A DNA stretch of 64,000 nt from Zavarzinia marina. GTDB lineage: Bacteria > Pseudomonadota > Alphaproteobacteria > Zavarziniales > Zavarziniaceae. A program made the position numbers and the translations under genes. Below the pieces are notes generated by a model. That model ran no database searches, was not told the DNA's origin, and was given only the letters and a program-made list of their open reading frames with translations. Where the stretch lies: positions 124,001-188,000 of the forward strand of contig NZ_JAKGSB010000006.1 of assembly GCF_021568905.1 (NCBI RefSeq). Reading direction: 5' to 3'. Position 1 is the first letter of the stretch, and each line of letters opens with the position of its first letter. This document shows positions 20,379 to 22,638 of this stretch, in pieces.

Positions 20379-20467
20379 TCGCCCCCCGGTTCCGCAACCG
20401 GCGCCATCGCTCCCGCCCCGCCGGCGGCGGGCGGCGGCGCTCCGCGCCCTGCCCCCGCACCTTGACC

Positions 20468-20487
20468 ATATGTGCAAAGTGTCATAT
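20468..20487. promoter_or_regulatory. Palindromic operator upstream of the PadR gene
   Basis: ATATG and CATAT half-sites separated by 10 nt (each lies in a CATATG hexamer, 20467-20472 and 20483-20488) sit 23 nt before the PadR start codon. PadR proteins bind dyads with about 10-nt centres, so autoregulation of this operon is likely. Confidence 0.55.
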
Positions 20488-20510
20488 GAAACTTGCGGGG
20501 AGATCAGACA

Positions 20511-21095
20511 ATGGCGCTGCGTGACGCAATTCTCGTCAGCCTCGGCGACGGACCGATGTCCGGCTACGACCTCGCGAAGCATTTCGACGAGACCATCGGC
20601 TTCTTCTGGCGCGCCACCCATTCCCAGATCTATCGCGAACTCGCCAAGCTGAAGGATCGCGGCCTCGTCACCAGCGAGCACGTGCCACAATCCGGGCGGC
20701 CGAACCGCATCCTCTATTCCGTCACCGACAAGGGCCGCGAGGCGCTGCTGGAATGGTCGCGCCAGCCGGCGGCGGCGGACCCCGTGAAGGATGACTTCCT
20801 GGTCCGCCTCTACGGTCTCGAGCACATGGACATGGATGCCCTGCTGGAGCATCTGAACCAGCGCCTCGAAGGCCATCGGGAACGCCTGGCGAAATTCAGC
20901 CGGATCGCGGCCGAGGCGAGGCCCCGGACCCTCGGCGAACTCGGCCGGCTGCGCGGTCTCGAGATCGGGCTGCGCTACGAGCGCGAATGGGCGCAATGGT
21001 GCGAGGAGACCTTGCAGGCCCTCTCGCCCGAGAACATCGCGCGGTTCGACACGGTCGTCCCGCTCGACAATAAGAAAGGGAGGCCCAAACAATGA
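20511..21095 (+). CDS. PadR-family transcriptional regulator
   Basis: 194 residues. The N-terminal winged helix carries the PadR signature ILVSLGDGPMSGYDLAKHF...ATHSQIYRELAKLKDRGLV...SVTDKGREAL (residues 4-80). The C-terminal helical part (about 90-180) matches the Vir_C-like dimerisation region. PadR repressors often respond to small phenolic or aromatic compounds. The ATG at 20511 has GGGGAG about 8 nt upstream, better than the ATG 18 nt earlier. Its stop overlaps the next start by 4 nt, making it the first gene of a three-gene unit. Confidence 0.9.
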   Translation: MALRDAILVSLGDGPMSGYDLAKHFDETIGFFWRATHSQIYRELAKLKDRGLVTSEHVPQSGRPNRILYSVTDKGREALLEWSRQPAAADPVKDDFLVRLYGLEHMDMDALLEHLNQRLEGHRERLAKFSRIAAEARPRTLGELGRLRGLEIGLRYEREWAQWCEETLQALSPENIARFDTVVPLDNKKGRPKQ

Positions 21096-21964
21096 CGGCA
21101 ACGACCAAGCCGCACGACATCGTCGTCCGCAGGATACCCTTCGCCTTCGACGAGCGCATCGACCCGGTCTGGAACCCCGCGAAGCCGGAATGGAGCCATA
21201 TGGTCAACGGTGCCTCGCTGACCATGCCCTATCTCGAACCCTTTCTGATCCGGACGGCCCGCGAGGCGATGGCGCAGGTCGAAGACCCCGGCCTGAAGGA
21301 AGACATCCGCGGCTTCATCGCCCAGGAAGGCCAGCACTATCAGAACCACCGACGCTACAACGAGCTTCTGAAGGCCAAGGGCTATCCCGAACTGGCGGAC
21401 GTCGAAGCGGAAATGGAAGCCGATTTCGCCCGCATCCAGGAAAAGCCGCTGCGCTGGCGGGTCGCCTATACGGCCGGCTTCGAGACCATGACCATGGGCA
21501 TCACGGAATGGCTGATCACCAACCGCCGGGACCTGTTCGGCGGCGCCGACCCTGCCGTGACCTCCTTCGTGCTGTGGCACATGGTGGAGGAGACCGAGCA
21601 CAAGACCGTCGCCTTCGATCTCTACAAGGCGCTCTACGACGATTACTGGCCGCGTGTCTGGGGCATCGTCTGCGGCAGCCTGCATGTCATGAAATACAGC
21701 CGCAAAGCCTATGTCCTCATGCTGAAGAAGGACGGGCGCTGGCGCGACTGGCGCAGCCGGCTGCGCACCATGCGCATGGGCGCCGCCTTCCTGATCAACG
21801 TCGGCCGGCTGCTCGTCGGCTCGATGCGGCCGGGCCATCACCCGGACCGGGTGTCCGATCCCGACTGGGTCCGCCAGTGGACGGAGGCCTATGCCGGCCT
21901 GCCGGCCCAGCACATCCCGCTTCTGGATACGGCCGATCCCGACATACCCGCACGCTTCGCCTGA
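21092..21964 (+). CDS. PF10118-type metal-dependent protein with a diiron-like ligand pattern
   Basis: 290 residues, recognised as the family annotated 'metal-dependent hydrolase' (PF10118). The helical core shows two ExxH motifs, E79-GQ-H82 and E167-TE-H170, plus further acidic residues in helices at E49, E131 and E139. This is the arrangement of carboxylate-bridged diiron proteins; the two ExxH motifs are seen, the metal centre is inferred. No enzyme activity of the family is known to me. It is translationally coupled to PadR upstream (ATGA) and precedes a styrene-oxide-isomerase-like membrane protein by 31 nt, which hints at oxidative aromatic or alkene metabolism. Confidence 0.75.
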   Translation: MTATTKPHDIVVRRIPFAFDERIDPVWNPAKPEWSHMVNGASLTMPYLEPFLIRTAREAMAQVEDPGLKEDIRGFIAQEGQHYQNHRRYNELLKAKGYPELADVEAEMEADFARIQEKPLRWRVAYTAGFETMTMGITEWLITNRRDLFGGADPAVTSFVLWHMVEETEHKTVAFDLYKALYDDYWPRVWGIVCGSLHVMKYSRKAYVLMLKKDGRWRDWRSRLRTMRMGAAFLINVGRLLVGSMRPGHHPDRVSDPDWVRQWTEAYAGLPAQHIPLLDTADPDIPARFA

Positions 21965-21995
21965 AGAAAAGCGCCGACGACGAGGGAAGGAAGAC

Positions 21996-22508
21996 ATGAA
22001 CGACCAACAGAACATCAAGGCGGTCCAGCGGATGCTGATCGGCCACGGCGCCCTGCTGATCTTCGCCGCCGGCGTGATCGGCTTCGGCTTCCTGTTCTTC
22101 CTGATGGGCAAGATCGCGCTCTGGCCCATTCCGTGGGAAGTCGACTATCAGATGCCCGGCACCTATGACGCCTGGCGCATGGCCCATATGGAAGGCATCG
22201 CCAACGGCCTCCTGCTGTGGCTGACCTGCGCCGTCCTGCCCCTGCTGCCGTTCGGCGCGAAGGGCCGGCGCCGGATCGCCCTTGCCATGATCGTCATCGC
22301 CTGGACCATCGTCGTCGCCTCGGCGCTGGATCCCCTGTTCCCCGAAAGCCGGGGCCTACAGTTCGGCGGGCCCCTGACCAACCAGTTCGCCTTCTTCCTG
22401 TTCTATGTCGGCGTGCTGGGCGCCATGATCGTCCCCGCCCTCATCGCCTACCGCTGCCTGCGCCCCGCCGCCCGGACGGCCGAGGAAACGGCGGAAGTTC
22501 GCCATTGA
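21996..22508 (+). CDS. Four-helix membrane protein resembling styrene oxide isomerase
   Basis: 170 residues with four membrane helices (about 18-38, 66-88, 93-112, 125-150). Compared from memory with Pseudomonas StyC, it shares MxGHGxLxIF at the N-terminus (H17), then a PG...W..AHxxxxxNG block, and RGLxFG before helix 4. In StyC the His of AH...NG is the axial ligand of haem b and the Asn (here N70) lies in the active site; both (H64, N70) are present. The catalytic Tyr before the RGLxFG segment appears to be Ala here, so the reaction may differ. GGGAAGG precedes the ATG. Alternative: a haem-binding membrane protein of unknown role. Confidence 0.6.
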   Translation: MNDQQNIKAVQRMLIGHGALLIFAAGVIGFGFLFFLMGKIALWPIPWEVDYQMPGTYDAWRMAHMEGIANGLLLWLTCAVLPLLPFGAKGRRRIALAMIVIAWTIVVASALDPLFPESRGLQFGGPLTNQFAFFLFYVGVLGAMIVPALIAYRCLRPAARTAEETAEVRH

Positions 22509-22563: not shown

Positions 22564-22638
22564 GCCCTTGTAGCTCAGCGGTAGAGCAGCGGTTTTGTAA
22601 ACCGAAGGTCGCGGGTTCAATCCCTGCCGGGGGCACCA
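22564..22638 (+). tRNA. tRNA-Thr (TGT)
   Basis: A 75-nt cloverleaf: acceptor GCCCTTG / CGGGGGC (two G-T pairs), D-arm GCTCAGCGGTAGAGC, anticodon loop TTTGTAA giving TGT, T-arm GGGTTCAATCCC, discriminator A, encoded CCA. It stands alone between the isomerase-like gene and the DUF4332 gene. Confidence 0.96.

Follow-up and report, generated by a model that had tools for sequence, protein, structure and literature searches.

Styrene oxide isomerase (SOI or StyC), the closest described relative of the membrane protein reported here, converts styrene oxide to phenylacetaldehyde with a ferric haem b, located at a trimer interface, that serves as Lewis acid, and its partner is the flavin oxygenase StyA/StyB. 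Alanine exchange of either N99 or Y103 abolishes SOI activity, and exchange of H58 leads to loss of haem (PMC11374702); the H57A and R111A variants of the Rhodococcus enzyme give a picture that matches (PMC12502698), and the roles of H58 and R111/R112 are described in these two studies (PMC11374702, PMC12502698). The authors of the SOI structure found no substantial structural relatives with DALI (PMC11374702). SOI is treated as standing alone within styrene degradation; in the present analysis it appears as one branch of a wider family, two clades of which pair with a diiron-type oxygenase, one of them having exchanged its catalytic residues wholesale. The classical arrangement occurs in the genus Zavarzinia as well: at L067:10030-12715, StyA (720 bits; cut-off 550) adjoins a StyC of the branch labelled clade A below. 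Nearby genes look like ones for phenylacetate degradation, StyA being the one gene checked at this locus.

The window is a stretch of 64,000 nucleotides from Zavarzinia marina, and the locus of interest comprises the following features, numbered from the first nucleotide of the window:

20468..20487, forward strand: inverted repeat ATATG-N10-CATAT, a likely PadR operator (comparison with shuffled sequence; kept 5' of padR in Henriciella, L023)
20511..21095, forward strand: padR, regulator of the PadR family, 194 aa, with a C-terminal PF10400 domain (Pfam; an orthologue adjoins the PF10118 gene in L023, L026, L027 and L030)
21092..21964, forward strand: PF10118 gene, 290 aa, predicted ferritin-like diiron protein (Pfam, alignment and predicted model)
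21996..22508, forward strand: four-helix membrane protein of the SOI superfamily, 170 aa, clade E (sequence, model and tree)
22564..22638: tRNA-Thr, 3' of the operon

The gene order and spacing given in the original prediction, which had been made from the sequence of the window alone, were confirmed: padR overlaps the PF10118 gene by 4 nt (ATGA), 31 nt separate the latter from the SOI-like gene, and all three genes lie on one strand. The PadR protein matches PF03551 (E 5.9e-17) and PF10400 (E 9.4e-17) with 61.9 bits each, above the Pfam cut-offs. The inverted repeat reported in the same prediction is found zero times by expectation in shuffled sequence, and it recurs 5' of padR in Henriciella inside a conserved 28-nt block, TTGACCATATGTGCAAAGTnnCATATGA; these two copies are the sole matches in the 947 kb searched. 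The repeat sits within a TTGACC-17 nt-TATGAA element that looks promoter-like by eye, although the promoter scan did not call it. PadR probably represses its own operon from an operator placed over the promoter.

Sequence and fold both uphold the earlier view of the membrane protein as StyC-like. It matches the NCBIfam StyC model (NF045734) at E 5.9e-15 and the SOI chains of the PDB at E 3.7e-13 and 1.1e-12 by sequence, and it carries each of the motifs previously named (GHG, PG..W..AHxxxxxNG and RGLxFG). Its 55.6 bits against the StyC model nevertheless fall below the curated cut-off of 150 bits, which the clade A proteins L011 and L014 exceed; scores of StyC-type proteins from Zavarzinia reach 216-224 bits. 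The AlphaFold2 model (pLDDT 90) has the SOI fold according to Foldseek (E 4.6e-8; TM 0.78/0.86) and VIA (Z 17.8, rmsd 2.2, 149 aligned residues and 29% identity to PDB 8pnu; next match Z 9.8). With matches to MAPEG-type proteins and haem-copper oxidases (Z < 10) taken as helical-bundle background, SOI is the only significant structural match; Pfam matches to FtsX and MASE7 were discarded as below cut-off. Judged by these comparisons, the protein is a distant yet certain SOI relative. In a tree of 54 SOI-like proteins, it groups with its own relatives as clade E (support 100/98), separate from the group formed by clade A and the PDB SOI chains and from clades B, C and D. The letters A-E were assigned in this analysis, and the D label is imperfect in that one long-branch sequence from L025 falls elsewhere.

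Alignment places H64, N70 and R119 of the window protein at H58 (the haem ligand), N64 and R112 of SOI, in agreement with the haem His and active-site Asn that had been proposed. The H58 and N64 positions are invariant in the 25 clade E and 26 non-E proteins compared, and at the R112 position all 25 clade E proteins have arginine, which is the commonest residue elsewhere. Clade E keeps the axial haem His and propionate Arg of SOI, and its members likely bind haem, but it has lost the catalytic Y103 and N99: N99, F102 and Y103, invariant in 26/26 non-E proteins, are replaced in clade E (n=25) by Ile, Ala and Ser at 92-96%, and the window protein has I105, A108 and S109 at these positions. The Tyr of StyC had previously been read as changed to Ala; its best counterpart is instead S109, taken in preference to A110 because comparison with the sequence L064:1867-2328 locates the single inserted residue of clade E behind the Tyr position. 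The replacement extends to N99 and F102, and thus to the whole trio. Possible new chemistry, as suggested in the prediction, is supported. M65, E66, W75, D112, P113 and N129 are invariant gains of clade E. L064 itself, a sister of clade E, shows the Ala/Ser change and the Glu while keeping Asn99, and is by its sequence an evolutionary intermediate; no PF10118 gene occurs in the 12 kb read at that locus.

The known SOI mechanism cannot run unchanged in clade E, since the Y103A and N99A exchanges kill SOI and both residues are absent here. By the same token, isomerase activity of clade E cannot be assumed from homology (PMC11374702), and ordinary SOI catalysis by the window protein is doubtful from its residues. 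Clade E is a natural experiment on the SOI haem site without Tyr103. An ordinary Meinwald epoxide isomerase, acting on another epoxide with Ser109 or Glu66 in the role of Tyr103, would account for the retention of the SOI fold, the haem ligand and N64, for the exchange of bulky residues for small ones, which would admit larger substrates, and for the aldehyde-oxidising neighbours of the pair in two genomes (L024 and L045); we nonetheless consider it unlikely in view of the inactivity of SOI lacking Y103 or N99 (PMC11374702) and of a Zhongshania protein (L044) that has Ala at the Ser109 position.

The second gene of the pair encodes a member of PF10118 (Metal_hydrol; E 1.3e-59, 202.3 bits against a gathering score of 33.2), a family annotated as predicted metal-dependent hydrolase. 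The two ExxH motifs from which a diiron-like protein had been proposed are both real in alignment (E79xxH82 and E167xxH170), and E49, E79xxH82, E131, H163, E166 and E167xxH170 are invariant. The resulting ligand pattern of E, ExxH, E and ExxH (E49, E79/H82, E131, E167/H170), kept in all 25 proteins compared, lies on four predicted helices in diiron order. The predicted model (pLDDT 90) gives weak fold matches to CmlI, AurF, ribonucleotide reductase (RNR) R2, R2-like oxidases and soluble methane, toluene and phenol monooxygenases; the 50 fold matches listed consist uniformly of chains from RNR R2 and diiron oxygenases, each of them weak taken singly (Foldseek E >= 0.08), with Z values of about 12 that are within the range of unrelated helical bundles. 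No PDB chain has a significant sequence match to the protein, which sets it apart from these diiron enzymes, as does its family. Hydrolase function finds no support among the listed structural matches, and, going by the model and ligand pattern, a soluble diiron oxygenase is a likelier identity for the protein than a hydrolase and the most likely one overall. PF10118 thereby gains a concrete candidate function that can be tested.

When the genomes of about 85,000 species were scanned, a close relative of the membrane protein turned up at 25 loci, distributed over Alphaproteobacteria, Gammaproteobacteria, Binatia, Deltaproteobacteria and Acidimicrobiales. Adjacency in distant taxa, which the original prediction had named as support for a unit, is indeed recurrent: a PF10118 gene is the neighbour in 24/25 loci, L025 being the sole exception. 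Two outcomes named beforehand as refuting the prediction, a lack of structural similarity to StyC and a neighbourhood confined to close relatives, thus did not occur. It lies directly upstream on the same strand in 21 loci (overlapping by 4 nt in eight of these, and cut by a contig end in two), and in three loci of erythrobacter type padR and the PF10118 gene are divergent from the isomerase-like gene. The adjoining regulator is PadR, TetR, AraC or HTH-MEDS according to lineage (examples checked with Pfam). Chance proximity is rejected on the strength of the 24 loci and this exchange of regulators, and the same exchange removes aromatic sensing, at which the PadR operator had seemed to hint, as a general clue. 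The clade E proteins form one clade (100/98) and so do their PF10118 partners (96/96), and the pairwise distances of the two are correlated (r 0.70; 0/5000 permutations as high), a correlation that includes shared species history and supports co-inheritance, not contact. Clade E is patchy, being present in 2 or 3 of 289 sampled alphaproteobacterial genomes. The PF10118 and SOI-like genes are a real unit; very probably they share one job that is not yet described, perhaps in hydrocarbon breakdown. Among the open-access papers searched, none dealt with the chemistry of PF10118 or described the pair.

From the homology, fold, clade membership, adjacency with regulator exchange, correlated distances and conserved haem and diiron ligands computed here, we infer cofactor loading, oxygenation, order of steps, substrate class and regulation in the following scheme. 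A hydrophobic substrate, probably of alkene type, would receive oxygen from the PF10118 diiron oxygenase, and the product, an epoxide or a similar oxygenated compound, would then be converted by the membrane haem b protein with Fe(III) as Lewis acid. The active site of this protein would be a rebuilt one, in which Ser109, Glu66, Asp112 and Asn129 are the candidates to stand in for the Tyr/Asn/Phe set of SOI. Because the site is rebuilt, the substrate and perhaps the reaction would differ from the rearrangement of styrene oxide to phenylacetaldehyde. That the two genes form a conserved cassette of a PF10118 diiron oxygenase and an SOI-superfamily haem b protein for oxidative handling of a hydrophobic compound has, in our estimate, an even chance of being correct. 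The more specific proposal, that clade E is a haem b family that took over the haem cradle of SOI but has a Glu/Ser/Asp site and a non-Meinwald reaction, working with the PF10118 oxygenase in an undescribed pathway of two iron enzymes in several phyla, is put forward tentatively, its chances being somewhat short of even.

This scheme resembles the StyA-StyC styrene pathway in its logic of an oxygenase plus an SOI-family isomerase, and the window protein resembles SOI (PDB 8pnu) in its fold, its equivalents of H58, N64 and R112, its GHG and RGLxFG motifs and the location of its gene beside one of oxygenase type. It differs in the oxygenase class, the partner being a diiron-like PF10118 protein instead of flavin StyA/StyB; in the isomerase clade, with I/A/S for N99/F102/Y103 and invariant M65, E66, D112 and N129; and in that no StyA-StyC cluster lies beside the window pair.

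The operon encodes no reductase, a feature consistent with a different role for the clade E haem protein: not as isomerase, but in the membrane at the service of the diiron site of the PF10118 enzyme, whether by anchoring it, by supplying substrate or as an electron-transfer haem. Such a partner could lose N99, F102 and Y103 clade-wide while H64 and R119 stay invariant, and could acquire the Met and Glu next to H64 that clade E has gained as invariant residues; for SOI itself, a role in anchoring pathway enzymes to the membrane has been proposed (PMC12502698), and in L032 and L034 a canonical SOI-like gene directly follows that of clade E. The ferric haem of known SOI, with its Lewis acid role, and the clade D pairs described below, which keep the isomerase residues beside a sister clade of PF10118, point the other way and leave this explanation rather unlikely. 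Nor, to our knowledge, does any diiron oxygenase use such a haem membrane partner.

Genes near some pairs fit a sequential conversion of substrate, as in the proposed scheme. Zhongshania L045 encodes on one strand a clade D SOI-like protein (SOI-D), an NAD aldehyde dehydrogenase, a TonB receptor, the clade D type of PF10118 protein (PF10118-D), a CoA ligase, PF10118-E and SOI-E, in that order; in Arenicella (L024), molybdenum aldehyde-oxidase-type genes directly follow the pair; and glutathione S-transferase (GST) genes follow it in L023 and L040. HTH-MEDS regulators, present at four loci only, all in gammaproteobacteria, occur in clusters for ethylene, epoxyethane and vinyl chloride, in which sensing is assigned to them mostly by prediction (PMC11507031, PMC8784404, PMC8727900). 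By gene content, the aldehyde-oxidising enzymes, CoA ligases, GSTs and MEDS regulators near some pairs would fit a route from alkene through epoxide and aldehyde to acid. Most loci consist of the pair and a regulator with no further catabolic neighbours, and this stand-alone state with swapped regulators and no fixed catabolic cluster, together with the adjoining GST genes of L023 and L040, would also suit a stress or detoxification cassette that destroys a toxic reactive compound instead of feeding carbon. We consider that function very unlikely, as the aldehyde dehydrogenase, CoA ligase and TonB receptor near the Zhongshania pair look catabolic.

Clade D, which retains the canonical SOI residues, provides a second pair. 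Its gene adjoins a PF10118 gene in 4/5 other alphaproteobacteria examined (L059-L062, not L063) and lies about 10 kb from one in two Zavarzinia genomes. The PF10118 partners of clade D, with one unpaired copy (L079), form the sister clade of the clade E partners and are separate from ten further PF10118 genes. Surroundings of 12-20 kb were read for ten Zavarzinia loci of clades A, B and C and contain no PF10118 gene, and PF10118 pairing as a general habit of SOI-like genes is rejected on this basis (0/10). The original prediction of an epoxidase coupled to an isomerase finds its best match in clade D; for clade E it fits only if an altered active site is allowed for.

Several further arrangements of these genes were observed. 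The genome of the window contains nine PF10118 genes and three SOI-like genes; one of its PF10118 genes (L085:8461-9402) is of clade D type, and the 20 kb read around it contain no SOI-like gene. In the two Zavarzinia genomes with the 10 kb spacing, the clade D gene is clustered with an MMPL transporter, a 2Fe-2S ferredoxin and an aldehyde dehydrogenase (L047), or with a MalT-type LuxR regulator and a CoA ligase (L049). The canonical SOI-like genes directly 3' of the clade E gene (L032:10536-11003 and L034:10535-11002) retain the Asn and Tyr and could encode the real isomerase there. In Zhongshania L044:7467-10483, the paralogous pairs stand side by side in the order SOI-D, PF10118-D, PF10118-E and SOI-E.
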